A stretch of DNA of 64,000 bases. It comes from an uncultured Clostridia bacterium. GTDB taxonomy: Bacteria > Bacillota > Clostridia > Christensenellales > UBA1242. The position numbers were made by a program, and so were the translations under genes. The notes below the pieces were generated by a model. It had not been told where the DNA came from. It saw nothing but the letters and a program-made list of their open reading frames with translations, and ran no database searches. This document shows, in pieces, positions 8,540-56,760 of this stretch (its first letter is position 1; the number at the start of each line of letters is the position of its first letter). Where the stretch lies: positions 1-64,000 of the forward strand of contig CALWPB010000004.1 in the NCBI GenBank assembly GCA_944383315.1, read 5' to 3'.

Positions 8540-10603
8540 CTAAAAATCGTCTGTTTGTCCGTTATCTGTACTATCATTTATATTGCCTGTATTCTCTAAA
8601 GGTAAAAATACAGCAAAGACTTGTTTATTTTCAACTATTGAGTATGGAATATTAGCACTTTCGGTAGTATAATCAGCGAGAATTTCGCCGTCCACTCGCC
8701 AGCCAACAAAACGGTATCCCGTATACGCAACTGCGCTAAAATGAACGTAATCTATGCCATTGTAATTTGTGTAGCCTATTATTCGGGCTTCGCCCGCCGC
8801 CACCACTTCGGGTGTATCGGGGCATTCCACACTCACAGCCACACCTTCAACAAGCCCGCTGCCAAAATATGCGGTTAGTGTTGTACTTTGGGTAATGGTA
8901 TAATTAAGCGGATTGTCATAGTACACATTTCCGTTGCTTTCGTCATACCAATAGAGAAAAGCGCAGTTATTCTTTGCTATTGCCATTATGTTATTAATTT
9001 GTGTATTTGCGTCTTGTGTAAGTGTTGTGGAAGTTGTTAAACCACCATTAACAAATATTTGTCCGTATTCTGCATTATTTGTGCGTATTGTAATATTTAT
9101 TAATTGTCTAAATATTGCCGTAATTGTTGCATCACCAGTTACGGTAAATGTATACGGGTTGGCGGTTGGTTCGTCACTATCATATTGATTATTTCCGTTA
9201 ATGTCCCAGCCGAGAAATTCATAACCGCTATTTGTTGTGGCAGATAAAGTGGCTTGTGTATTGTAATTATATACCCCGCCACCTGTTACACTCCCCGCTC
9301 CTACTGGAGAAATGTTTGCTGTGATTGTATAACTATTTGGCTCAAAGATTGCTGTATATGTACCGCTTGCTGTGGCGGTGAATGTGTATTCTGCGCTAGT
9401 AGATACTGTGGCACCATTACTTTCCCAGCGGACAAAGTGATAGCCCGTGTTTGGTGTGGCGGTTATTGTAACTGAAGAATTCATTTGTACCATACCACCA
9501 CCTGAAACTGTGCCGTAATTTGTGTTGTTTGATTGAGCGGTGATGGTATATGATGCTGCGTTTGCTAGTGCTGAAAGTGAAATATGACAAGCAGGACGGA
9601 CGCCGTAGCCATAGCGCACATTGCCGTAGTTAGCGGAGCCCGAGGAGTTCACTCGCATCGCATTGCCGTCAGCGCTAGAGAAGCCGGAGCGCAGCCAGCA
9701 ATAACTTGTACTGCTTCCATCTAGTGTTGTTGCACTAAATCTGTTATCAGCGGCAGTTAAGCCCCATAAACCATTAGTATCACTTCGATCACCACTACCT
9801 GATGCAGTATTAAAGACTTCATAGGCACTAGGTATCCAAAACACATCACTCATACAACTAGACCACGCTGTACCTGTACTACTACCCCAACTATAACTAC
9901 TACCACTATTACTACCCATACCATTATGGTGAGCATAATCACTACTACTAGCAGTAGTATACACATCATTTTGGCTAGACTGCCAAGCGCTTGACGCAGT
10001 ACTTGGCGCAGTAATTATAGTATTTAAAGTGGTGAACTTATTTGATAATAATGTATATATATTTTTTGTAATATCTCTTAATTGCGACATTGAATAGTTA
10101 TTATAATAAAGACCATTACTACTACCAGAATGGTCGTTGCCTGGGTCAAATGCGTTTACTGTCCTTCCATTGTAGTTATAATATCCATTAGTATAAGGCT
10201 GTGTCATCCAAATTGTTAAATAGCCATTACGTAAATATGTAGCCTGCCAATTTATTGGCTTACTTGTATTTATTGCTCCACTACTATCTACGAAATATCC
10301 CATTTGGAATACAAATGAGCCGCCGCTTCCTGTACGACTTGCAATTTGTGGAGATGTCAATGTAGTTGAACTTGTAATGCTAGTATATTGCAACTTTGTT
10401 AAAAATTTACTAACATTTTCCGCATTTAAAGAGCCGTCTGTATTAAATAAATTACCTATAGTGGCATCGGCTGATTGTGTTGTTGCATTTGCATTATTTA
10501 AGTGATTAACAATCAAATATGCACCCGTTCCCGCGAGTGCGCCAAACATAAATACAACCGCAATTATGATACTTATTAGCCTTGCTTTTGCACTAATTTG
10601 CAT
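8540..10603 (-). CDS. DUF6273/InlB-repeat surface protein carrying a DGR-type variable region (target A)
   Basis: This is a 687-residue secreted or membrane-tethered protein. The start is placed at the ATG at 10603, not the in-frame ATG at 10639: AAAAGGAG precedes 10603 and the N-terminus then aligns with target B (MQISAKARLIS versus MQLSAKARLIS). Residues 8-32 form a signal peptide or signal anchor. Residues about 45-355 form a DUF6273-like domain with FWIPSAYEVF, NGLWGLTAADNRF, CWLRSG and YGVRPA, resembling the C-type-lectin/formylglycine-enzyme fold used by DGR target proteins. Residues 301-338 are the hypervariable block. Several divergent InlB B-repeats follow (GYHFVRWESNG, GYEFLGWDING, GYRFVGWRVDG). 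The tail TDNGQTDDF is shared with target B. It is divergent from an XRE gene. The fold and ligand-binding role are inferred. Confidence 0.9.
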   Translation of the reverse strand: MQISAKARLISIIIAVVFMFGALAGTGAYLIVNHLNNANATTQSADATIGNLFNTDGSLNAENVSKFLTKLQYTSITSSTTLTSPQIASRTGSGGSFVFQMGYFVDSSGAINTSKPINWQATYLRNGYLTIWMTQPYTNGYYNYNGRTVNAFDPGNDHSGSSNGLYYNNYSMSQLRDITKNIYTLLSNKFTTLNTIITAPSTASSAWQSSQNDVYTTASSSDYAHHNGMGSNSGSSYSWGSSTGTAWSSCMSDVFWIPSAYEVFNTASGSGDRSDTNGLWGLTAADNRFSATTLDGSSTSYCWLRSGFSSADGNAMRVNSSGSANYGNVRYGYGVRPACHISLSALANAASYTITAQSNNTNYGTVSGGGMVQMNSSVTITATPNTGYHFVRWESNGATVSTSAEYTFTATASGTYTAIFEPNSYTITANISPVGAGSVTGGGVYNYNTQATLSATTNSGYEFLGWDINGNNQYDSDEPTANPYTFTVTGDATITAIFRQLINITIRTNNAEYGQIFVNGGLTTSTTLTQDANTQINNIMAIAKNNCAFLYWYDESNGNVYYDNPLNYTITQSTTLTAYFGSGLVEGVAVSVECPDTPEVVAAGEARIIGYTNYNGIDYVHFSAVAYTGYRFVGWRVDGEILADYTTESANIPYSIVENKQVFAVFLPLENTGNINDSTDNGQTDDF
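9591..9703 (-). other. Candidate DGR variable region A (113 bp)
   Basis: This block is codons 301-338 of target A. It aligns gaplessly with 55724-55836 in target B. The copies differ at 21 positions, all first or second codon bases (AGC/GAC, GCT/TTT, GGC/TAC, AAC/GGC, AAC/CGC, CGC/TAC and others), and every third base is identical. The 5' end (TATTGCTGGCTGCGCTCCGG) and the GC-rich 3' end (GGCGTCCGTCCTGC) are invariant. The invariant 3' end is the expected place for an initiation-of-mutagenic-homing sequence. GC is about 62% by hand count, far above the surroundings. Confidence 0.85.
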
Positions 10604-10952
10604 AGATTTATACTCCTTTTTTGCGGAGATACTCTCCATATTTATTTATTATAACCTATTTTTCGACAAAAAACTTACAAAATGCAAACTTGTATCAACT
10701 TTTTTTTGTTTTTTTATAATAAAATAAATCAGGGTGATATGTAATACATTTTTATCTTACAATTGCTTCCCTACTTTATAAAATAGGTTTTTAAATGTAT
10801 TTACAAATACTCAAAAATATACAATTTCTTTTAAAAAATATTTTAATAATAAAATTTAAAGCATATTTTTAAAAATAATTGTACATTAATATTATATGCT
10901 CCAATTTGGAGCGTGTCAATAAATTAAAGTGTATTTTCGGTAAAATTTTAAT
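10604..10952. promoter_or_regulatory. Divergent control region between target A and its XRE gene
   Basis: This 349-bp AT-rich region has no ORF. It contains a minus-strand promoter (10891-10919) with a palindrome in its spacer. A second possible minus-strand -10 (TATAAT, 10648-10653) is followed by the palindrome GGAGATACTCTCC (10625-10637). At the right end is a leaderless-type -10 (TAAAAT, 10941-10946) for the XRE gene. Confidence 0.6.
10891..10919 (-). promoter_or_regulatory. Promoter toward target A with operator palindrome in the spacer
   Basis: On the minus strand, TTGACA (10914-10919), a 17-bp spacer and TATAAT (10891-10896). The spacer is almost entirely filled by GCTCCAAATTGGAGC (10898-10912), a palindrome with one central base. 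A regulator bound there would block RNA polymerase. The divergent XRE protein is the obvious candidate. The transcript would have a leader of about 280 nt. Confidence 0.7.
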
Positions 10953-13018: not shown

Positions 13019-16000
13019 TTATTTTTTAGGTTTCCCCTTTGCAGACTTTGCTTTACTCTTATTTTTTGAGTTTGAAGATTTTGATTTTGCAGCCGTTTTA
13101 GGTTTTGCTTTCGCGGTGGTTTGCGATTGCTCTATCTTTTCTGGCTTGTTAATCGAAATTTCTTCTGCTTCGTCATCAGTTTTAAGAGTTGGCTGTTGGT
13201 CTTCTGCTTTTTTAGGTCTGCCCATTAATTCACCCTTGTGATTTATAGGTGCTACTGTAATCTTACGAACAGGAATTGGAGAAACATTTGCCTTTGTATT
13301 CTTGCGTGTAGGAACTGGCTCAATAGCATTGCGGTAACGGTCTCGTTTTGCATCTTTCTGCAATGCGTCCTTGTCATCCTTGCTGTTAAGCAGTACGCGT
13401 ACAGGCATTGGCTCAGATTCTTTCATCTTGATGTATGCAGCTGAACCTGCAATTAAAATCACAGCGAACAACACACAACCAGCAAGAATTATCAAGATAT
13501 TCCAGTCAAAGTTTTTCTTGAACAATGCACGTACTTCAACATTACCATTTAAATTAAGGCTCAATGTGTCTTCTGTACTAACAACTACGCCATTAATTAC
13601 CCAGCCTACAAATGAGCAATTATTTTCGCTCACTGCTTGAAGTACAACATTTTCTTTGTATAATCCGCTTGTATTACCTATAATCTTACCATAGTTATCA
13701 TTACTTGACACCAAAGTAATTTCAAAGACAGGTTCGAATACAGCAACAAAAGTGCGATCTTCCTTACCGATTTTGAATGAGTACTCAAGGTCAGAACTAA
13801 TAACATTGCCATTTTCCTGCCAATTTACGAATCTATAACCAGCAAGCGCTTTTGCCGAAAGTGTTACTGTAGTGTCAACGACATATTCCCCACCACCAAT
13901 AACTTCTCCAGCTAGTTTATCAGACATCTGCACGGTTACATTTGATACACGTTCGTAACTAGCATAAATTAGTACATCATCCTTTACTGTAATAGCGATT
14001 TCATTTTCAAGTGATAGTAATTCACCCTGTGGATTTGTTGATGGATTATTCAAGATATACCATCCCATAAAGCGATACCCTTCATTGCTTTGAGTAGTTA
14101 ATGTAACAGAATCACCAAATTTATAGAGGTTAGAATTTAGCCCTTTAATTGTACCTGCACCTTCAATAATATCATAATTATTAGTGCTACTATTCCAACG
14201 TGCCACGTAAGCAGAGACTCTGTAATCCACCAATTCAAACACGGCTTCAACAATCATAGTTTGGCCTGTTGCATAAATTGTGTAATTTGTGCTACTTGAA
14301 ACTGGTACATTGTTAACTTCCCAATGACTAAACACGAATTTATCTGAATAAATACCATTGCTTAAATATTCACTTGCTACACGTAAATTTATTTCGCTAG
14401 TATAATCGAAGTTTACACTTTGGTTTTGCTCGGTTACAAAATTACCATTATAACTGAACCAATTACCATCGGTATCAACTCCCGAAGCAACAAACAAAAC
14501 GTGTGTTTCTATTGGTGTAAAGTAAGCTATAAGTTGAATGTTTTCAACAATTCCAGTACACGTAAAAGTACCATTTTTGTTGTCGTAAGAACCATTTGTG
14601 AATTCCCTACTTAAATCCCATCTTGAGAACTGGAACACAGCAGGAATGTTGAAACTAATTTCAACTATATCACCGTAAGTGTATTCGCCTATACCTTTTA
14701 TACAACTTTGTTCAATAGTATAAATTGAATTCTTGTCGTAATTTATGATTACAGATACTGCATACTTGATTTTTTCAAGTTGTATAGTAACTGTTGTGTC
14801 GGCTCTCAAATAAAGCATACTACCGTTTGTATAAGTCTGCCCATCAGTTGAAGTAATTTCAGAGATTGTATATCCCGGTGCAAGTGTTATATTTAATGGG
14901 ATAACCGTATTATAATTAAACTCATTTGTACCAATTAAGTTTATATCACCGTAGTTAATAGTTGCGCCATCTTCTGGTGTTACATTAATAGTCAAATTGA
15001 ATGTCTTTATAGTAAATACTGGTACAATAGTAATATTATCAGTTAAACCATTAATTTTTAATGTTGCGCTTGCCAAATCAAAAGTAATTTGGCTATTACC
15101 TGTACTCCAATCAATCGGAGTTTCTGAGTCCCCGATATATACAAGCATATTTGTAAGTTCGTAGCCAGTACTTGGAGTCGCAACAATGGTTAAGTTTTCA
15201 TCATAATAGAATCTATTACCACTCGTTGGTGATGTTGTTGCTTCGGTAATTGAAGCACTACCATTAGTTACATTGTCAATCATAACCAAATAACTTTTTT
15301 TGTCAAAGTTTGCGGTTATGTTTATATTGCCTTTATCTTGCACTGTAAAGAAATATTCTGGTTGTTCGATAGTACGTGTTTCACCATTGCCGAATTCAAT
15401 CAACCAAGATACGAATTCATAATTCTCGTTTGCAACTACGGCATTTAATGAAAGTGTTTCGCCATATTGTGCTGTTTCACCGCTATTAATTGCACTTTCA
15501 CCCACTGTTACTGTTATGTTACCTATACCTGAATCTATACTATTGAAATTAACAGTATATGATTTAGCTTGAATATTTGCTAAAACGTTGATAGTTGTTG
15601 GAATTGCGTCTTCATTTGCTGCCATATATCCGTCAATATATGTCTTAACATTAAGGCTTGCATTTGCGCCATCTCCATTTATTGCACTGTAACTTGCAGA
15701 CCAACTAGAAATCTCATAACCTGTTACAGTAGCACCAGCGATTTCTACTATATCGTCGTATGTAACATTTATTTCGTCTTTGTATGCGAATACACTTTCG
15801 CCTACTGTGATAGTAGTGTTATCTGCGTCGATTCTATCTGAAGGAGTTGCTGCAATATTTAATAAATATGTTTTGTAATCAAATACAGCAATGATTTGTG
15901 AGTCGTAATTTGTAAAGATTTGAGTACTTGGGTCGATAGCAACTCTTTCATTTACTTTTTCATCAGCGATTGAACTGCTTGGATACTTAATATTCCATTG

Positions 16001-17521
16001 TTCAAATTCGTATTTTTGTTGCATAGCAATATTTGACGAAATAATAACTGTAGAACCTTGTTCAAAGAAATATGAATTGTTGTATGTTACTAAATCAGGT
16101 GTACTTTGATATACAGAAGATGCTTGTTCTTCGGTCAAATCACCACCGTCAATATCTTGAGCGGCAAAATCAAACTTTATCAACTGAGGTACATTATATA
16201 ATACTGGTAAGCCATTATTTGCATTAAGTTGCATAACCCAAACTGTGTTAGTATTGCTGCCCCATTGGTCTGTCGGATATTGTGTTATTGAAAAACCATT
16301 AAGTGTACTATAAACTAATGTACTACTTGTTAACATATCTTTATTATATCCTGTACCAGCATCTCTACTAAAGCTCAACTCTTGTGTCATAAATACATTT
16401 TTACTATAACGTGAAAAGTATGATTGAATAGCCGTTTTGTTACCTATAATGTAACCGATGTCAAGAGACTGATTAGATACATTTGTTTTACCAACTTTTA
16501 CGGTACTAATAGTATTATTAACTGCTGGTGCATTAACAGCCATTTCAACATAACCTACAATACCACCTACACCGCTTGCGTTTTCATTGCTAGAGTATAC
16601 ATCAAACTCAGTATTATATGAGTTTGTTGTCGAAGGAGCATTATAACAGTTGTAGATTACGGCACCATAATAAACAGCACCAGCAAGTCCACCTACGTAA
16701 TTACCACCCTCAACATACCCTGTATTGTAACAGTCTTGGATAATTACGGCAGCTTGAGCATCTGAGTATGTACGGTTTACCATTTGTCCGCCGCCGATAC
16801 TTTCTTCTTCTTGTTTAGTTTGATATGTAGGAGTTACTACAGAGTCAATCGCACCATAAGCAGCACCAACAATAGCACCCGCATATTCTCTATTTGTTTT
16901 AATAACTGTATCCTTGAGTCCTAAACGTTGAATAACGGGCTTATATTCAACCTCCCCCTCTTTAACGTAAGATACATTACCAAATAAACCAGCATACATA
17001 TCATCTACGTTTGAATCCTCTTCATCAATAATCGTCAAACCGTAAATTGAATAACCAGCACCGTTTAACGAACCAGAGAAAGGATTTTCAAAAGTTCCAA
17101 TAGGTTCCCACAACGTCCATTGTGAAATGTCTATATGATTAGTTAATTGAAAGTATGCTTTTGAATAAGTCTTTTGCAAAGCCAATTCATCAGACTGACT
17201 TTCTGCATCAAACACTGTATTTACAAAATATGCTAAAGTACGCAAATCATCTGCATCACTTATTTTATAAGGGTTTGTAGCGGAATTTAGCGAGCCTGAA
17301 GTAACTAACTCAAAGTACTCACCTGGACTTACTTCTGTTGGAGTAAATCCTTCAAGCGAACTTGCATAAACGGTTTCGCCATCGACAGCACTTACTTCCC
17401 CTTGTCTTGCGCTAATGCTAGGCATAAGCATTATTACTGCAACGATTATGCCCAAAAGCAGCAATAACGAACATTGCATTACTGGCTTTATATTTAGCTT
17501 AAAGAATTTACTTAAACTCAT
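13019..17521 (-). CDS. Giant InlB-repeat surface protein with a basic cytoplasmic tail
   Basis: This is a 1500-residue protein starting at the ATG at 17521 (GGAGGAAAAT just upstream; an earlier TTG overlaps this site). Residues about 10-40 form a signal peptide or anchor (MQCSLLLLLGIIVAVIMLMPS). A GLUG-like region follows (WTLWEPIGTFENPFSGSLNG, then YAGLFGNV, YVGGLAGAVYYG, GVGGIVGYV), then many divergent InlB-type repeats (GYRFMGWYI, GYRFVNWQENG, CSFVGWVING). Near residue 1360 is a membrane helix (ILIILAGCVLFAVILIAG). The last 120 or so residues are cytoplasmic and highly basic, with MGRPKK and KAKSAKGKPKK stretches. It is probably an adhesin-like protein. The tail is unusual. Confidence 0.88.
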   Translation of the reverse strand: MSLSKFFKLNIKPVMQCSLLLLLGIIVAVIMLMPSISARQGEVSAVDGETVYASSLEGFTPTEVSPGEYFELVTSGSLNSATNPYKISDADDLRTLAYFVNTVFDAESQSDELALQKTYSKAYFQLTNHIDISQWTLWEPIGTFENPFSGSLNGAGYSIYGLTIIDEEDSNVDDMYAGLFGNVSYVKEGEVEYKPVIQRLGLKDTVIKTNREYAGAIVGAAYGAIDSVVTPTYQTKQEEESIGGGQMVNRTYSDAQAAVIIQDCYNTGYVEGGNYVGGLAGAVYYGAVIYNCYNAPSTTNSYNTEFDVYSSNENASGVGGIVGYVEMAVNAPAVNNTISTVKVGKTNVSNQSLDIGYIIGNKTAIQSYFSRYSKNVFMTQELSFSRDAGTGYNKDMLTSSTLVYSTLNGFSITQYPTDQWGSNTNTVWVMQLNANNGLPVLYNVPQLIKFDFAAQDIDGGDLTEEQASSVYQSTPDLVTYNNSYFFEQGSTVIISSNIAMQQKYEFEQWNIKYPSSSIADEKVNERVAIDPSTQIFTNYDSQIIAVFDYKTYLLNIAATPSDRIDADNTTITVGESVFAYKDEINVTYDDIVEIAGATVTGYEISSWSASYSAINGDGANASLNVKTYIDGYMAANEDAIPTTINVLANIQAKSYTVNFNSIDSGIGNITVTVGESAINSGETAQYGETLSLNAVVANENYEFVSWLIEFGNGETRTIEQPEYFFTVQDKGNINITANFDKKSYLVMIDNVTNGSASITEATTSPTSGNRFYYDENLTIVATPSTGYELTNMLVYIGDSETPIDWSTGNSQITFDLASATLKINGLTDNITIVPVFTIKTFNLTINVTPEDGATINYGDINLIGTNEFNYNTVIPLNITLAPGYTISEITSTDGQTYTNGSMLYLRADTTVTIQLEKIKYAVSVIINYDKNSIYTIEQSCIKGIGEYTYGDIVEISFNIPAVFQFSRWDLSREFTNGSYDNKNGTFTCTGIVENIQLIAYFTPIETHVLFVASGVDTDGNWFSYNGNFVTEQNQSVNFDYTSEINLRVASEYLSNGIYSDKFVFSHWEVNNVPVSSSTNYTIYATGQTMIVEAVFELVDYRVSAYVARWNSSTNNYDIIEGAGTIKGLNSNLYKFGDSVTLTTQSNEGYRFMGWYILNNPSTNPQGELLSLENEIAITVKDDVLIYASYERVSNVTVQMSDKLAGEVIGGGEYVVDTTVTLSAKALAGYRFVNWQENGNVISSDLEYSFKIGKEDRTFVAVFEPVFEITLVSSNDNYGKIIGNTSGLYKENVVLQAVSENNCSFVGWVINGVVVSTEDTLSLNLNGNVEVRALFKKNFDWNILIILAGCVLFAVILIAGSAAYIKMKESEPMPVRVLLNSKDDKDALQKDAKRDRYRNAIEPVPTRKNTKANVSPIPVRKITVAPINHKGELMGRPKKAEDQQPTLKTDDEAEEISINKPEKIEQSQTTAKAKPKTAAKSKSSNSKNKSKAKSAKGKPKK

Positions 17522-17561
17522 ATTTTCCTCCAAGTGATAAGTTGCCCTAACCTATCACCCT

Positions 17562-18495: not shown

Positions 18496-21400
18496 TTAGA
18501 TAGTACCTGAACCGAATACACTGTCTGTACCGTTTAAGATTTTAGTAACTTCGACAACCACTGAAGCTGCCTGACCATCTTGAATAGCTATTTGATAACT
18601 ATCCTCTCCTGTAACACCATCACCACTAACTTCTGTCTGGATGAAGATTGCAACAGATACATAGATATCATAGTTAGCTACTTGACAATCAACCGTTACA
18701 TTTCCACCAGCAGGAATTACCATAACAATTCTGTCATTAGGGTCATCTTTATTTACAAGTACTACCAAAGATGCTGAGTCGCCGCCAGCAATAGAATCAG
18801 TAAATGAAACATTCAATGCTTGCAATAAGCGATATACAAACACAACTTGTATATTGTCGTATTCATCGTTTAATTCGTACTGGAATTCTGTTGTTGGCTC
18901 ATAAGTTTTAACAACACTACCACCACTCATTACAACAATACTATTTAATACTGCTTTTCTTGCCAAACTGTCAATACTTACATCAAATGTAGTCTGATAA
19001 CCAGTAATTGTCAATGAATTTGAATATTTAGCATTAATTGCACTTACATAAGCCTGCGCAGGAGCATTATTTATACTGTACTGATATGCGTTTTTATAAC
19101 CAGCCCCAACACTTAAATTTGGTATGTCTGCACTAATTTCTGTATTTAAGTTATCACCAATAGTAATCGTGTAAGGACGTTGAGTATAATTAATAGTAAT
19201 AGTTGCATTTTCAGTCAATGTAAATGTAATACTACCGCTATTGTTCCATTGACCTTTTGCAGGTGTATAACTCGGAGTACCTGTAGGTCCACTTATTGTA
19301 ATACTATCTACTCTGTAACCTATGTTACCTGATGTAGCGGTTAATGTAATTTGGTCATTAAGGATATAATCACTATCCGCTTTACCATTTGTTACTCCAG
19401 TAGCAGTTATTGAGTATTTACCAAGAGGTGTTTGCGCACCATCCAAATTCTCAATTACTGTAATAGAACGAGTAATAGTTATAAAGTTTACAGTTACTGT
19501 AATTGCTTGATTATTCTTTGCTGGTATAACACCTGCTTTTTTATACAAAGAACGCAAAGTTGATACTGTACTATCGAAAATTGTTTGAGGACCTTGTGTA
19601 CCTTGGTAAATGCCACTAGGTTGATATGCAACAATGTTATTATAGGTCTGACCACCAATAGTTGCATTTACATTGTTTAAGAAATATTTCATATATTCTG
19701 CATCACTAACTGATACTGTGTAATCAGAAAGAGCAGCATCTAAGGTTAAGCCTGAAACTGACTGATTTGGGAATGTGAATATACTTGAATCAGTTGGAGC
19801 AACACCATCAACAGTAACATTAAATGCAAGTGAATATGTATTCATAACTGAATATACAACGTCGTAAGCAGCACTAGCCTCAGTAAAGTCAGCAACAAAA
19901 GTACCGTGATAAACACCAGTTGACGGGTCTGCTGGCAGAGCAATACCATCCTCACCCTTAATAGTGTTTAATTCATAATCATAACCGTTTGCATAATCAG
20001 GTTTTACATATACGTGTACAGTTGATGCATAAGACACTTGTATAGAAAGATTGTCAGCATTGATGGTACTTGTATCAAGTATTTCTGTTGAACTCAAGAA
20101 TACAATACCTGGTGCAGAATTTGCTGTAGCATCTAAATATTCAGTAATGCTAATAGTCTTTTGGTCGTATTCAAAGGTTGCAGTAAATCTTAATGTAGTA
20201 ACATCATCACCCATAACTGTTGCGGTATTACCTAAAGAAGCCAATAAACTATAAGTTTCTGATTCAGTCGTTATTGTAGGATTTACTATAGTACCTACCA
20301 AACTACCGTCAGCATTTGAAAGTGTCCAATCTTTAAATTTTAACAAGCCAGTGATTGCAGAAGAGTTGGTTATACTTACATTTACACTTGAGTTGTTGAA
20401 TAAAATATTTTTACTATCACCAGGCTTTGCTGTAGAAACTGTTACACCAGCACCACTTACGTCAGTAAACGCAACTTGACCTACCGGCATAGTGCCTGAG
20501 TAACCTGACGGAGGAGTAACTACTGCTGTAACTTGATATACCCTATCAAATACAGGTCTAAACCAGAAAGTATCACCGCCACTAAACTTGTTGTACTCAT
20601 CATTTATTGTAATTGTGTAAGTCCAACCAGTAGTACTGTCACCGGTAAGGCCATAGAATGCATCACCAGCACCAAAATTTGGTACATTAGTATTTACAGC
20701 ACCATTTTGAGTACCAACTAACAAACTGTTATAAGAACGTTGAGCATCCGCACCAATATTTATAGTAAGAACTGTACCTTCGGTATACCATACACCGCTT
20801 GCATTTTCTGTTAAATCTTCATTTAATGGTGTAGTAGATGCTGAGTAACTAAATGTACTACCACCTGCATATGCGCTTGTAAAACCATTAAACATAGGGT
20901 CAATATTAAAGTTATACAAACGAACAAATTTTGCTTCCAAATTGTAGTAATCGTCTATCCCATTAGGAAAAGCATAAGTAAATGGATAATAACCACCTGC
21001 TAATGCGCCTTTTGTAGTGTCGGCTGCTAATTTAAACTCGCGCTCTGAACCTTCAATTTTATTGCCTGCTGCATCAACATCATAGTGATACCAACCAACA
21101 AACTGATAATGCTTTCCAACAGAAGAAGCGGCACTTGCTGTAATGGTAACAGGAGTATTAATTGTAGCAGTGGTTACCGTGCTTGACACGGTACAATCAG
21201 GAGTGTTTGATGTTAAGTTGATTGTGGCTTCTTTCATAAAGCAGTAAAGCATAGGCAAACGGTCGTTGACCACATTAGACATAAACCAAACACCACTTGC
21301 ATTTGCTGGTCTAAATGCCCAATTTGGATATGTAGTAGCAACAGCATTTTTATCTCTTAAAGTTTCGTAAGAGGTAATTGGAGTACCAATATTATTGTTT

Positions 21401-23079
21401 GTAGAATTGTAGTAAATACAATTTATTACAGAACCGCCACCATTAGCACCAGCAATACCACCTATAGCAGTTGCCGCAGTGCCTTGTGTAGCACCGATGT
21501 TGTAACAATTCCCTACCAATGAACCACTAACACTACCTACTATACCACCGACATAGTCGTGTCCAGTTATACCATTAAGGTTGTATGAATTTACAATACC
21601 TTTTGTAGCCCCTTCAACAGCACTACCTGCACTTGCACTAATAGCACCGACCAAGCCACCAACATAATTATATCCTGATATACCACAATCGCTGTAACAT
21701 TGTGAAATAAAACTATTTGTAGCATTACCAGCAATAGCACCTACGTATGAGTTTGTTGTATACCAAGAAGAATTAATTACACCAACACGCGTAATAGTTG
21801 CGTTATCCACATAACCAAATAAGCCAACAAGACCTGAACCTGCTGTTGAAAGATTACTAATTGTGTAGCCATTTCCATCAAAGTTACCAGAGAATACAAA
21901 TCCCTGTCTTCCGATTGGGTTCCATACTGTTACATCACTCATATCAATGTTGCCACCCATTTGGAAGTAAAGCCCTGACATATTTTGTCCTGCCATAACA
22001 GCATCTGAAAGAATTACCAAAAACTCTGATGTTGAGAATACAAAAGGAGCGCCTTGAGAACCATCACCACTATCAGCAGCCTCAGCAAGCATTCCTGTAT
22101 AATCAGGAGTTGCACTTGCAAGAATTGCATCATTTGCGCTTGTGTTTACATCACCGTTTACACTAACAACCTCATCAGAAACGTCTGAAATACCTGGAAG
22201 CGCAATATTAATACAAGGACGAACACCATATTCATCAGCAGCATTTGCTTGCTTTACGACACCATCTTTAAGTACTGCTTGTGCTCCATTTACACTTGAA
22301 CGTAACCAAGACGCATCATCTCCAAGACGAATATTATTTGAAGTATTCCAAAGACCACTATTTAATGTAAATCCACTGGCTTCAATAGTCTTAAAACTGT
22401 TTACACGTGCCTTTGGTGAAGTAGAAGTATTCGCAAAACCACCAACTTCGTATGCACTAGGTATCCAGATTTTGTCGCCATTAATACCATCATTTCCAGA
22501 AATCTCGCCTTTGTTTAAAGTGCTTAATTCTATTGCCTGAGCTCCTGCTGCTTGATAGTAAATTTCATCTGCGCCATAAGGAATAATGTAACTTTCAATG
22601 TTGTCATAACCTATTTTTTCAATAAATTGTGGATAGAAAACATTATTTAAGTATTCTCTTACATCGCTTCCACTATAATCGTCATCGCCAAAAGGTAATG
22701 TTGCTACCGCCTCATTTGCGTAAAGGGTAACTATACCATCTTGCATATAAACTACAGTCCAAGAAATACCACCGAGTTCAATTACTGATGATACAATGCT
22801 ACCACCAGCATTACCAAGTGCTACATTATCACCATATTGAGTTACATTATCTGTAAGTTTAGATAAAATGGAATTATTCCATCCTGTACTAGACAATAAC
22901 GCACCAGAATCAAGTGATTCAGTCTTTGAATTTGTATCGGGAGTAACGACAAAATTATCTTTTTGAGAAAGTACAACTCCCAGAGTAATCGCAGTTGCGC
23001 AAACCACCGCTAAAATAGTAAAAATTATTATTTTCAACCATTTTTTAGATAAGTTTACACCCCTGATATAAGTACTCAT
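18496..23079 (-). CDS. Giant secreted DUF6273/GLUG/InlB-repeat protein
   Basis: This 1527-residue protein has a signal anchor at about residues 12-38 (KKWLKIIIFTILAVVCATAITLGVVLSQ). A DUF6273-like domain spans about 60-310 (WIPSAYEVGGF, GLWNTSNN, WLRSSVNGAQ, YGVRPCINIAL). GLUG motifs follow (GLFGYVDNATITRVGV, YVGAIAGN, YVGGLVGAI, YVGGIVGSVSG, AIGGIAG, about 400-570), and then a long array of divergent repeats to the end. No C-terminal anchor is seen. Its DUF6273 domain lacks the GC-rich NNC-codon block found in targets A and B, so it looks like a non-diversified relative. Start support: GGAGG seven bases upstream. Confidence 0.88.
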   Translation of the reverse strand: MSTYIRGVNLSKKWLKIIIFTILAVVCATAITLGVVLSQKDNFVVTPDTNSKTESLDSGALLSSTGWNNSILSKLTDNVTQYGDNVALGNAGGSIVSSVIELGGISWTVVYMQDGIVTLYANEAVATLPFGDDDYSGSDVREYLNNVFYPQFIEKIGYDNIESYIIPYGADEIYYQAAGAQAIELSTLNKGEISGNDGINGDKIWIPSAYEVGGFANTSTSPKARVNSFKTIEASGFTLNSGLWNTSNNIRLGDDASWLRSSVNGAQAVLKDGVVKQANAADEYGVRPCINIALPGISDVSDEVVSVNGDVNTSANDAILASATPDYTGMLAEAADSGDGSQGAPFVFSTSEFLVILSDAVMAGQNMSGLYFQMGGNIDMSDVTVWNPIGRQGFVFSGNFDGNGYTISNLSTAGSGLVGLFGYVDNATITRVGVINSSWYTTNSYVGAIAGNATNSFISQCYSDCGISGYNYVGGLVGAISASAGSAVEGATKGIVNSYNLNGITGHDYVGGIVGSVSGSLVGNCYNIGATQGTAATAIGGIAGANGGGSVINCIYYNSTNNNIGTPITSYETLRDKNAVATTYPNWAFRPANASGVWFMSNVVNDRLPMLYCFMKEATINLTSNTPDCTVSSTVTTATINTPVTITASAASSVGKHYQFVGWYHYDVDAAGNKIEGSEREFKLAADTTKGALAGGYYPFTYAFPNGIDDYYNLEAKFVRLYNFNIDPMFNGFTSAYAGGSTFSYSASTTPLNEDLTENASGVWYTEGTVLTINIGADAQRSYNSLLVGTQNGAVNTNVPNFGAGDAFYGLTGDSTTGWTYTITINDEYNKFSGGDTFWFRPVFDRVYQVTAVVTPPSGYSGTMPVGQVAFTDVSGAGVTVSTAKPGDSKNILFNNSSVNVSITNSSAITGLLKFKDWTLSNADGSLVGTIVNPTITTESETYSLLASLGNTATVMGDDVTTLRFTATFEYDQKTISITEYLDATANSAPGIVFLSSTEILDTSTINADNLSIQVSYASTVHVYVKPDYANGYDYELNTIKGEDGIALPADPSTGVYHGTFVADFTEASAAYDVVYSVMNTYSLAFNVTVDGVAPTDSSIFTFPNQSVSGLTLDAALSDYTVSVSDAEYMKYFLNNVNATIGGQTYNNIVAYQPSGIYQGTQGPQTIFDSTVSTLRSLYKKAGVIPAKNNQAITVTVNFITITRSITVIENLDGAQTPLGKYSITATGVTNGKADSDYILNDQITLTATSGNIGYRVDSITISGPTGTPSYTPAKGQWNNSGSITFTLTENATITINYTQRPYTITIGDNLNTEISADIPNLSVGAGYKNAYQYSINNAPAQAYVSAINAKYSNSLTITGYQTTFDVSIDSLARKAVLNSIVVMSGGSVVKTYEPTTEFQYELNDEYDNIQVVFVYRLLQALNVSFTDSIAGGDSASLVVLVNKDDPNDRIVMVIPAGGNVTVDCQVANYDIYVSVAIFIQTEVSGDGVTGEDSYQIAIQDGQAASVVVEVTKILNGTDSVFGSGTI

Positions 23080-54456: not shown

Positions 54457-56760
54457 TTATAAAAACACAAAATCGCCTGTTTGTCCGTTGTCGGTATCAT
54501 CATTAGTTGTTGAGTTGTCTATTGGGGCAAAGCGGGCTTGGACTATTTTTCCTAATACTGTTGCGCGGGATAATATGGTGGTTTCGTCCGTGCTAACTTG
54601 TATCCCGTCTATGTACCAACCTACAAAGCGGTAGCCTTGCATTTGCACTGCGGCTATTAGGGTAACTGTGTCCGTTGTGGAGTATGTGTCCCCTATTATT
54701 CGGGCTTCCCCGCCTATACTTGCGGTTATTGCCGTGTTGTTGTCTAGGTCAAAAGACAGGCTTGGAGTGGCTGATGCGTCCACACTAAATACTGGCACTA
54801 CCTCCACTCCTTCGGCTTGTTCGCGTGGGAGTGTTAGGGTTGTACCCGTGTATGTGGTGCCGTTTTCAGTGTATAGCATATCCCCTACATACCAGCCGAT
54901 TAGGTAGTATCCTGTATACGGTATCGCTTCGTATGATACTGTAGCACTGGTTGTGCCTGTGCCTAGGTCATTGCCACTTATACGAACTTCCCCGCCTAGT
55001 GTTGCGCTAGCAAATGCATTTGAGCGTTTAAAGTATGCTACCGCTGTGGTATCTTGAGTTATAGTAAAGGTATAAACTGTACCCGCTGTATCATTTCGTA
55101 CTCCATTGATTAACCAGTAATCAAGCCGGTATCCGTCATTTGCGGTAGCGGTCAGGGTTACTTGGTCGCTATATATTCCGCCACTTTGGGAACGAGAATA
55201 TGTGGCTGTACCCCACGTATTGTTATTTGAAGACACAGACACAGTACACGGGGTAAATACTGCGGTGTATGTGGCATTACCTGTTACGGTGGGGCGATAT
55301 GTGGTGCTTGTGGATACCTGCGAGCCATTACGTTCCCATTGGACAAATTTATATCCAGTAATAGGTGTAGCGGTGAGTGTGGCGGTGGTGTTGATTGTGT
55401 ATGTTCCGCCGCCTGTTGCTGTCCCTGTACCTGTTGGAGATACTGCTGTACTAATGGTAGCGGTGGCGGGCTCGAATATAGCGGTATAAGTATAACTGCC
55501 TGATACAGTGAAAGTATAACTTGCACTTGTAGATACTTGGGTGCCGTTACGTTCCCAGCGAACAAAACGGTAGCCACTGTTAGCAGTGGCACGCAAAGTT
55601 ATCGAAGTACCCTGCTTATATGTGCCACCACCTGATACTGTGCCAGAGTTTGCGGGAGTATAGTTTGTTGTGATTGTATAACTTGGTAGTAAATCTTCTA
55701 GTGCTGAAAGGGAGAGATGAGCGGCAGGACGGACGCCGTAGCTATAGTACACATAGTCGAAGCGAGCGGAGCCCGTGGAGCCCACTCGCACCGCATAGTA
55801 GTTAAAGTCAGAGAGGCCGGAGCGCAGCCAGCAATAGTTGCTGTAACCGCTACTACTACTTGAAGTAGACGTATTTGTATCTAATCGTACCGTGCTAAAC
55901 GCACGGTCAGTGGCAGTTAAGCCCCATAAGCCATTGTTTACCTGTACACCATTCGTTGCTGATTGATTGAATACTTCTACACTACTTGGTATCCAGAATT
56001 TATCATTGTATGGTGGATTTGTACTATCCCATAAGTTTTGTGCCCAACCTGTATATTTACCGCTATAACTTTTTAATCCATTGTGGTGGTCATAGTATGA
56101 ACTACCCCAAGTGTATACATCTTCCGTTTGTGTGGCTTGCCAAGTTGCATTCGCTTCATTTGGTGAGCGAACTATTGTGCTGAAATTGTTTAATTTAGCG
56201 GCTATTAAATCATAAATATTATTGGTTACGTCCCTTAGTACTGATTTGGAATAGTTACTATGTTCTGAATAAGGAGCATTACCTGAATAATCTGAAAATG
56301 GACTTGATGTTGATACATTAGCATTATAATCATTATAATCGCTTACTGTATAATTTTTTGTCATCCAAATAGTTAAGTAGCCATTACGAGCGTATACTGC
56401 TTGCCAAGTGATTGGCTTACTTGTATCCATTACGCCACTTGGTGATACATAATACCCCATATTAAAGATAAAACTGTTTGTTGCGGTTATGCCTGCTTGG
56501 TCTGCTATTTGTGGGCTTGTATATGTACCGCCACTTGTTACAAAGTCTAGTTTGTCTACAAATTGAGATACTGCGTTTGCATTGAGTGAGCCATCTGTGT
56601 TGTATAAGTTGCCGCTAATACTTAGAGTTGTTTCCCTTGTGGCGTTTGCTTTATTTATATGATTAACAATCAAGTATACACCGCTACCGATTAAAGCACC
56701 TGCCATAAAAACGACAGCAACTATAACACTTATTAACCTTGCTTTTGCGCTTAACTGCAT
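54457..56760 (-). CDS. DUF6273/InlB-repeat surface protein carrying a DGR-type variable region (target B)
   Basis: This 767-residue paralogue of target A has the same signal anchor (MQLSAKARLISVIVAVVFMAGAL) and the same DUF6273-like domain (FWIPSSVEVFN, NGLWGLTATDRAFS, CWLRSG, YSYGVRPAAH). Residues 309-346 are the hypervariable block, followed by at least five divergent InlB-type repeats (GYRFVRWERNG, GYKFVQWERNG, GYRLDYWLING, GYYLIGWYVG, GYRFVGWYIDG) and the shared tail TDNGQTGDF. GGGGGTGG is the ribosome site. An XRE gene lies divergently upstream, separated by a 790-bp repeat-rich leader with a G11 tract. It is probably a tethered binding protein whose ligand surface is diversified. Confidence 0.9.
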   Translation of the reverse strand: MQLSAKARLISVIVAVVFMAGALIGSGVYLIVNHINKANATRETTLSISGNLYNTDGSLNANAVSQFVDKLDFVTSGGTYTSPQIADQAGITATNSFIFNMGYYVSPSGVMDTSKPITWQAVYARNGYLTIWMTKNYTVSDYNDYNANVSTSSPFSDYSGNAPYSEHSNYSKSVLRDVTNNIYDLIAAKLNNFSTIVRSPNEANATWQATQTEDVYTWGSSYYDHHNGLKSYSGKYTGWAQNLWDSTNPPYNDKFWIPSSVEVFNQSATNGVQVNNGLWGLTATDRAFSTVRLDTNTSTSSSSSGYSNYCWLRSGLSDFNYYAVRVGSTGSARFDYVYYSYGVRPAAHLSLSALEDLLPSYTITTNYTPANSGTVSGGGTYKQGTSITLRATANSGYRFVRWERNGTQVSTSASYTFTVSGSYTYTAIFEPATATISTAVSPTGTGTATGGGTYTINTTATLTATPITGYKFVQWERNGSQVSTSTTYRPTVTGNATYTAVFTPCTVSVSSNNNTWGTATYSRSQSGGIYSDQVTLTATANDGYRLDYWLINGVRNDTAGTVYTFTITQDTTAVAYFKRSNAFASATLGGEVRISGNDLGTGTTSATVSYEAIPYTGYYLIGWYVGDMLYTENGTTYTGTTLTLPREQAEGVEVVPVFSVDASATPSLSFDLDNNTAITASIGGEARIIGDTYSTTDTVTLIAAVQMQGYRFVGWYIDGIQVSTDETTILSRATVLGKIVQARFAPIDNSTTNDDTDNGQTGDFVFL
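55724..55836 (-). other. Candidate DGR variable region B (113 bp)
   Basis: This block is codons 309-346 of target B, collinear with 9591-9703. Fifteen residues differ between the copies: F/L, S/D, A/F, D/N, G/Y, N/Y, M/V, N/G, S/T, N/R, Y/F, G/D, N/Y, R/Y and G/S (A then B). No third-base change occurs, although the flanking DUF6273 DNA is well diverged. Changed codons are mainly NNC/NNT, as expected from AAC/AAT template codons, which cannot mutate to stop codons. Confidence 0.85.

Follow-up and report, generated by a model that had tools for sequence, protein, structure and literature searches.

A probable trans-acting diversity-generating retroelement in an uncultured clostridial lineage, with adenine-poor, stop-bearing cassettes at positions of its variable regions

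Diversity-generating retroelements (DGRs) with many targets, and DGRs acting in trans, are already known. The DGR of Treponema denticola, according to the excerpted account, consists of one template repeat (TR) and one reverse transcriptase (RT) serving two to seven target genes, several of them remote (PMC4891356). Surveys of DGRs with multiple variable regions (VRs) exist, as one partial source documents (PMC6642488), and Roux et al. state in the section cited that their own survey would miss remote targets (PMC8144416). A stop is reported in the available part of the DiGReF paper, where it lies in the RT gene and not in the template (PMC3521204).

Here we describe a 113-base block at positions 9591–9703 of the window, i.e., of the whole stretch of 64,000 nucleotides that was analysed, which belongs to contig 4 of the assembly of an uncultured Clostridia bacterium (G000; 903 kb, 26 contigs, 75.8% complete). 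The block is almost certainly a VR of a chromosomal DGR acting in trans on many targets. Adenine-poor cassettes with an in-frame stop codon occupy VR positions in other genes of the same genome and in two congeneric genomes.

The paired block and its relatives in the window genome

The first-pass annotation had recognised the block by its comparison with a second one in the window. The features concerned are as follows.

9591..9703, minus strand: VR of target A, 37 codons, variable codons NNC/NNT
9591..9604, minus strand: invariant 3' end of this VR, GGCGTCCGTCCTGC on the coding strand, common to VRs and TRs
9683..9703, minus strand: invariant 5' end of this VR, TATTGCTGGCTGCGCTCCGGC on the coding strand
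8540..10639, minus strand: target gene A, 699 aa, with hydrophobic N-terminus, DUF6273 and InlB-type B repeats
55724..55836, minus strand: VR of target B, which is in register with that of target A
54457..56760, minus strand: target gene B, 767 aa, DUF6273 with the VR, InlB-type B repeats

The hydrophobic N-terminal segment of target A was judged by eye from the sequence. According to Pfam, DUF6273 covers residues 249–354 of this protein and encloses the VR, and the InlB-type B repeats (Flg_new_2) lie C-terminal of it. In target B, a DUF6273 match under the Pfam cut-off (residues 251–350) encloses the VR and is followed by InlB-type B repeats. The two genes share four direct-repeat families with 71–81% identity, of which the 81% family is the VR.

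Gapless alignment of both blocks over 113 bases reproduced the annotated count of 21 differences exactly, as well as their distribution over codon positions (13 first, eight second, and no third). The adenine reported in one copy at 16 of the 21 sites is found on the coding strand, corresponding to thymine on the plus strand. The flanking gene DNA, noted earlier as well diverged, differs most often at third bases, with 115, 100, and 156 differences at the first, second, and third positions upstream of the VR (297 codons) and 120, 117, and 198 downstream (328 codons). The contrast in codon positions is real, since the flanks differ most at third bases (156/371 upstream and 198/435 downstream); for third versus first and second bases inside and outside the VR, Fisher's test gave p = 1.2e-5. 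Moreover, the skew is beyond chance because eight more copies in the window genome vary at the same codons.

The search of the G000 DNA with the VR yielded 11 matches, namely ten near-full-length copies and a 22-base piece, which was later recognised as the terminal part of an adenine-poor cassette. In the coding orientation, the ten copies kept both ends and varied at NNC/NNT codons. The GC-rich invariant ends noted earlier, CTGGCTGCGCTCCGGC and GGCGTCCGTCCTGC on the coding strand, recur across the genome; the first codon of TATTGCTGGCTGCGCTCCGGC deviates in two of the ten copies. The segment 9591..9604 occupies the position expected of the homing site (IMH) and would probably act as such.

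All ten VRs are located in open frames, which make up nine ORFs of 607–767 aa, although for four VRs the left end of the ORF exceeds the sequence stretch examined. DUF6273 was detected by Pfam in all nine target ORFs, above the cut-off in five of them (A, L002, L032, L036, and L033), and InlB-type B repeats were above the cut-off in all nine. The predicted structure of a target, in which a C-type-lectin fold was sought, had a mean pLDDT of 34.5 and was too poor for reading the fold. In viral contigs, two stretches fitted a pattern for relatives of target A and neither encoded a relative; the exact 16-base VR end occurs in 54 viral-contig stretches.

Several further sequences of the same kind were observed. 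On contig 18, the two VRs of a single ORF (L032:2-1855) are separated by about 930 bases and fall within separate DUF6273 matches. On the minus strand of the window, a 1527-aa DUF6273 protein (18496–23079) is absent from the VR matches and is possibly a non-diversified relative, and a 1504-aa protein (13019–17533) has InlB-type B repeats resembling those of the DGR targets. The VR at C4:72598 has a diverged VR-like neighbour some 850 bases away (C4:73447-73560), the ends of which are altered.

Template, reverse transcriptase and Avd in congeneric genomes

A template was inferred from the G000 copies by setting the variable sites to A and was searched in 118 genomes (relatives and G000 itself). 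Matches at E up to 0.001 were obtained in nine genomes. The best one, G001:C90:626-736 from a species of the same genus, was 99% identical over 111 bases. It is intergenic, its flank is unlike the VR flanks, and it is thus a TR. The first-pass annotation had expected that the NNC/NNT codons derive from AAC/AAT codons of a template, and exactly such codons are present in the G001 TR. It had also anticipated that the genome of the window would contain a template carrying adenine at every variable site, next to a DGR-type RT. The template exists in the congener, and the G000 assembly, 75.8% complete, showed no TR matching it; nor was a TR present at the G000 site syntenic to the G001 TR, beside a gene termed PH-like by eye.

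Compared with the G001 TR, the ten G000 VRs were changed in 169 of 320 adenine cells and in 36 of 810 other cells. Half of the latter changes (18/36) belong to one diverged VR, L010, and nine of the 36 affect the first codon at its second base, which is A in nine of the ten VRs and G in the G001 TR. Of 20 third-base changes, 15 are in L010. The sole third-position adenine of the TR was unchanged in all ten VRs. With a TR taken from a congener, changes are therefore confined to template adenines in nine VRs, L010 being the diverged exception. A search of G001 with the TR and its flanks gave 20 matches: the TR itself, the end of an adenine-poor template, 16 strong and two weak VR matches. Fifteen of the strong matches are in long open frames, and that on C49 was not placeable by motif. 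For 13 of these 16 strong matches, comparison with the G001 TR showed changes in 219 of 416 adenine cells and 42 of 1053 other cells; this count omits the strong matches of differing length (C24, C62, and C85) as well as the weak ones on C7 and C10.

These data bear on the explanation that no DGR is involved and that the pattern arose by gene conversion or diversifying selection among paralogous surface genes. The targets do form a paralogous family, the blocks of which can be homogenised by gene conversion; however, neither process predicts changes confined to the positions of template adenines, frozen third bases, or a 99% intergenic match to a predicted sequence, and we regard this explanation as hardly tenable. 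The identification of the block as a DGR variable region is borne out by the ten VRs, by their adenine-confined changes, and by the matching TR and Avd-RT pair of the congeners.

G007, another congener, has a locus similar to the G001 TR and a second adenine-rich TR on a different contig. Just past the shared end, TRs of the lineage continue with CGCTTCACTCC, and VRs mostly with CGCTCA. The TR flanks share conserved sequence. A profile of eight flanks gave nine matches in six of the 118 genomes: the eight training loci, which are found by construction, and a new one in G059, a genome from another genus of the same family. Under stricter filters, this profile had no match in the G000 assembly. 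The RNA structure of the flank consensus was weak (5 pairs, covariation −0.09), so our claim is restricted to sequence conservation. Rfam matched nothing in five TR loci.

The RVT_1 domain (PF00078) was found in 29 of the 118 genomes, including four of the eight other congeners. In G001, a 390-aa RT gene begins inside the end of a 164-aa bAvd gene (Pfam RVT_1 and PF22296). The best solved relative of this RT is 8ub7, ‘Reverse transcriptase’ (2e-29), which we take to be the RT of the Bordetella phage BPP-1 DGR, and its motif IGNQTSQ is presumably DGR-typical. No solved relative of the Avd was obtained at E up to 0.1. In NCBIfam, the Avd model and all RT models (group II, Drt, and retron) remained under the cut-off. 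An RT of the DGR type with Avd is thus present in the lineage. G007 has an RT 79% identical to that of G001 and adjoining an Avd-like ORF (likened by eye). In G008 and G059, the TR lies side by side with the RT and an ORF judged Avd-like by eye. The G001 RT is on C82 and the matches to the TR flank are on C90 and C11, which places the TR remote from the RT; the exact TR end-motifs, both of them, are absent from the RT stretches of G001 (12.9 kb) and G007 (9.9 kb). As to the RT anticipated beside a template, the congener G001 has the bAvd-RT pair on a contig other than that of the TR, and the G000 assembly showed none.

The complete DGR cassette is consequently demonstrated in congeners and not in G000, the 75.8% complete assembly of which showed no RT, TR, or TR-flank RNA. 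RVT_1 had no match there, an absence inseparable from incompleteness. The G000 VRs might be relics, diversified in the past by an RT since lost from the species, as the lack of a detected RT, TR, or TR-flank match in this assembly would suggest. The assembly also has no match to a 271-aa gene, which we take to be RsmI-like, lying upstream of the G001 Avd-RT pair and a few hundred bases from the contig neighbours of that pair; this fits an RT locus missing from the assembly, although the empty result alone is weak. In addition, non-adenine bases are near-identical in nine of the ten VRs (18 changes in 729 cells), and eight of these changes are at one site where the TR of G000 itself may simply differ. 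We therefore consider loss of the RT improbable; RT and TR would rather be located in the unassembled part of the genome.

For a DGR active at present, the following mechanism could be proposed. The TR would be transcribed elsewhere in the genome and copied by the Avd-RT complex, which would misread template adenines. The mutated cDNA would then replace the VRs, each delimited by the pair of GC-rich invariant ends, of nine or more paralogous genes, one of them with two VRs. Their products, with an N-terminal hydrophobic segment, a VR-bearing DUF6273 domain, and InlB repeats, are probably surface-located. As a second layer, an almost adenine-free TR appears to be used by this machinery to insert a version that truncates targets instead of diversifying them.

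Adenine-poor cassettes with an in-frame stop

Searching G000 with the VR ends also led to three sites, two complete and one a fragment at a contig edge, that have the usual ends and a core containing 1 adenine in 80 bases.

C1:80990-81113 (L198): adenine-poor cassette, G000
C3:12438-12558 (L195): adenine-poor cassette, G000
C17:19824-19896 (L201): adenine-poor cassette, G000
C11, about 15745-15854 (flank to about 15990; L199, L210): intergenic source copy of the cassette with a TR-type continuation, G001

In total, nine copies of such cassettes occupy VR positions in three congeneric genomes, four of them in G001 and two in G007. Core adenines of the stop-bearing templates and cassettes were 1/80, 2/77, and 3/78 vs. 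32–34/82 in three normal TRs. Within each genome the copies are nearly identical: those of G000 are distinguished by the length of a T run (one T) and by a single base close to the 5' end, those of G001 are identical across the shared 100–110 bases, and the two of G007 read the same. Identity to the G000 cassette was 88–90% in G001 and 82–83% in G007. The segment CTCTTTGTAGTCGG is identical in all seven copies covering it, and an eighth covers all except its first two bases. The identity of the copies could stem from recombination between them instead of retrohoming.

In all six readable targets, the N-terminal ORF stops at the in-frame TAG of the cassette, with WLRSGSL (WLRSSSL in one) preceding it; the two truncated ORFs of G000 had no Pfam match. 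Downstream of the VR, all six readable C-terminal parts retain an open frame of 331–428 aa. Differences are more frequent at third bases than at first or second ones in 15 of 15 pairs of C-terminal parts and 15 of 15 pairs of N-terminal parts. Both parts being intact, the cassette is the sole lesion seen in these targets. The cassettes are 109, 108, 105, and 106 bases long vs. 110, and the resulting frame shift differs between genomes.

On C11 of G001, the intergenic copy agrees with the C64 copy at every position of a stretch of exactly 110 bases that stops at the usual boundary; two further copies (C37 and C76) match it over 100 bases, up to the contig ends. The flank of the C11 copy can be aligned with those of the other TRs. 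When the adenine-poor template and G059 were both withheld from training, a flank profile still found the C11 flank (E 1.2e-4) and also both TRs of G059 (1.2e-4 and 1.3e-4); among ten sources with a total of 145 kb, including the window, it otherwise matched, up to E 1, the two training TRs only. Only in G001 was an intergenic adenine-poor copy found to combine a TR-type flank with matching VR copies elsewhere in the genome; no source template of the cassettes was found in G000 or G007. The stop-cassette end was not found in viral contigs.

Homology of the cassette to the adenine-rich TR of the genus was considered and rejected as not significant, 39 of 300 shuffles reaching the score with A as a wildcard, or 239/1000 and 339/1000 for the two halves. 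Downstream of stop-cassette VRs (L011, L023, and L196), a stem TAGCC.../...GGCTA was observed 23 bases past the VR end, followed by a GC-rich stretch. It had 8 bases in two of four stop-cassette targets examined and 5 bases in the third (equalled by 0.21 of shuffles), and was absent in the fourth. Some such stems are also located downstream of TRs and ordinary VRs.

Near the RT and the Avd-like ORF of G059 (C2, about 84195-84420; L080), a second, stop-bearing and adenine-poor TR was detected. It has the same ends as the first TR, 3 adenines in 32 bases of the 5' half vs. 19/36, and an in-frame TAG; the 3' half is still adenine-rich. When A is treated as a wildcard, 46 of 1000 shuffles reach the score of its 5' half against the first TR. 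Kinship of this template with the cassette of the window's genus was not significant (566/1000 and 272/1000 shuffles reached the score). We surveyed 106 loci for local second copies; 49 had an adenine-biased repeat pair, and 46, some of them near-duplicates, were kept after exclusion by eye of L051, L120, and L182 as not TR-like. Among these 46 DGR loci, a stop-bearing adenine-poor second copy was present in G059 only. A second adenine-containing copy occurred at L164, further VR-like copies at L137, L157, and L173, and overlapping self-matches at L121.

The chances that such templates are burned-out TRs, with adenines lost via self-targeting or drift and targets damaged without benefit as a by-product of homing, seem to us about evenly balanced. 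Adenine loss can be reasoned to be the absorbing end state of repeated adenine mutagenesis, and the core counts given above correspond to it, as do the 5' half of the second G059 TR, fitting the first TR above most shuffles, and the variation of cassette frames across genomes. At the same time, the cassette of the window's genus aligns to the adenine-rich TR no better than shuffles, is kept in three species, and has conserved its first 14 bases.

Another reading is that a hardly mutable template writes an in-frame stop, which is later overwritten by adenine-rich homing, so that targets may toggle between silent and diversified states. The nearly identical copies within each genome, 82–90% identical to the G000 copy, and the persistence of the cassette in three species are consistent with such an OFF template, as are the termination at TAG with open C-terminal parts in six of six targets, the dedicated intergenic TR-like source in G001 with its flank found by the held-out profile, and a second genus having its own stop-bearing adenine-poor TR without detectable kinship. 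However, a random stretch of 38 codons has an in-frame stop anyway with a chance of about 0.84 (by reckoning), the frame shift is unlike between genomes, the local stop-bearing copy was met at one of 46 DGR loci, G000 and G007 yielded no source template, and both stop templates lack significant similarity. We regard this reading as possible, though doubtful. The more general proposal that some DGRs of this family of gut Clostridia pair an adenine-rich diversifying template with an almost adenine-free one pasting the same in-frame stop appears rather unlikely. If it is true, one RT would serve a surface-gene family in trans, and the DGR would be both a diversifier and a reversible silencer.

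Comparison with known systems

A template predicted from VRs alone, with variable sites set to A, located a real template in another species. Assemblies containing only VRs thereby become usable for finding DGRs even if RT and TR are distant or have dropped out during assembly. The adenine-poor stop templates are natural experiments on homing without mutagenesis and, if used for silencing, would add an ON/OFF function to DGRs. A non-mutagenic OFF template would be new: the open-licence literature on DGRs, as represented by the excerpts consulted, contained no stop-bearing or adenine-free template.

Compared with the excerpted description of the T. denticola DGR (PMC4891356), the present system likewise has one template for several unlinked genes with changes mostly at template adenines, and the ‘suspicious’ truncated targets listed there are a further likeness. 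In T. denticola, however, TR, RT, and one target are grouped in a core module, whereas the G001 TR is off the RT contig; targets number seven at most vs. 10 (G000) or 16 strong (G001) VR matches here; and a second, adenine-poor template is a feature of the present system. Some targets of the Thiohalocapsa PB-PSB1 DGRs are similarly best explained by the TR of another locus acting in trans, according to the available part of that account (PMC10907252). Unlike here, that organism has RTs of several classes, and its 15 targets are linked to MoxR-ATPase and STAND systems; the same part contains no stop-bearing template (PMC10907252). DUF6273 is mentioned in papers on Faecalibacterium prophage DGRs and tentaclins (PMC11792537 and PMC10743442); to judge from the titles, those genes are phage-borne, whereas the targets described here apparently belong to a bacterial chromosome.

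The DGR of Bordetella phage BPP-1 (bRT-Avd-TR RNA) resembles the present system in having bAvd and an RT related to 8ub7, a conserved flank after the TR, and a VR with invariant ends. The system described here differs in being chromosomal, with many targets and a TR distant from the RT, and in the position of the VR, which is internal to the protein and followed by InlB repeats instead of being C-terminal.
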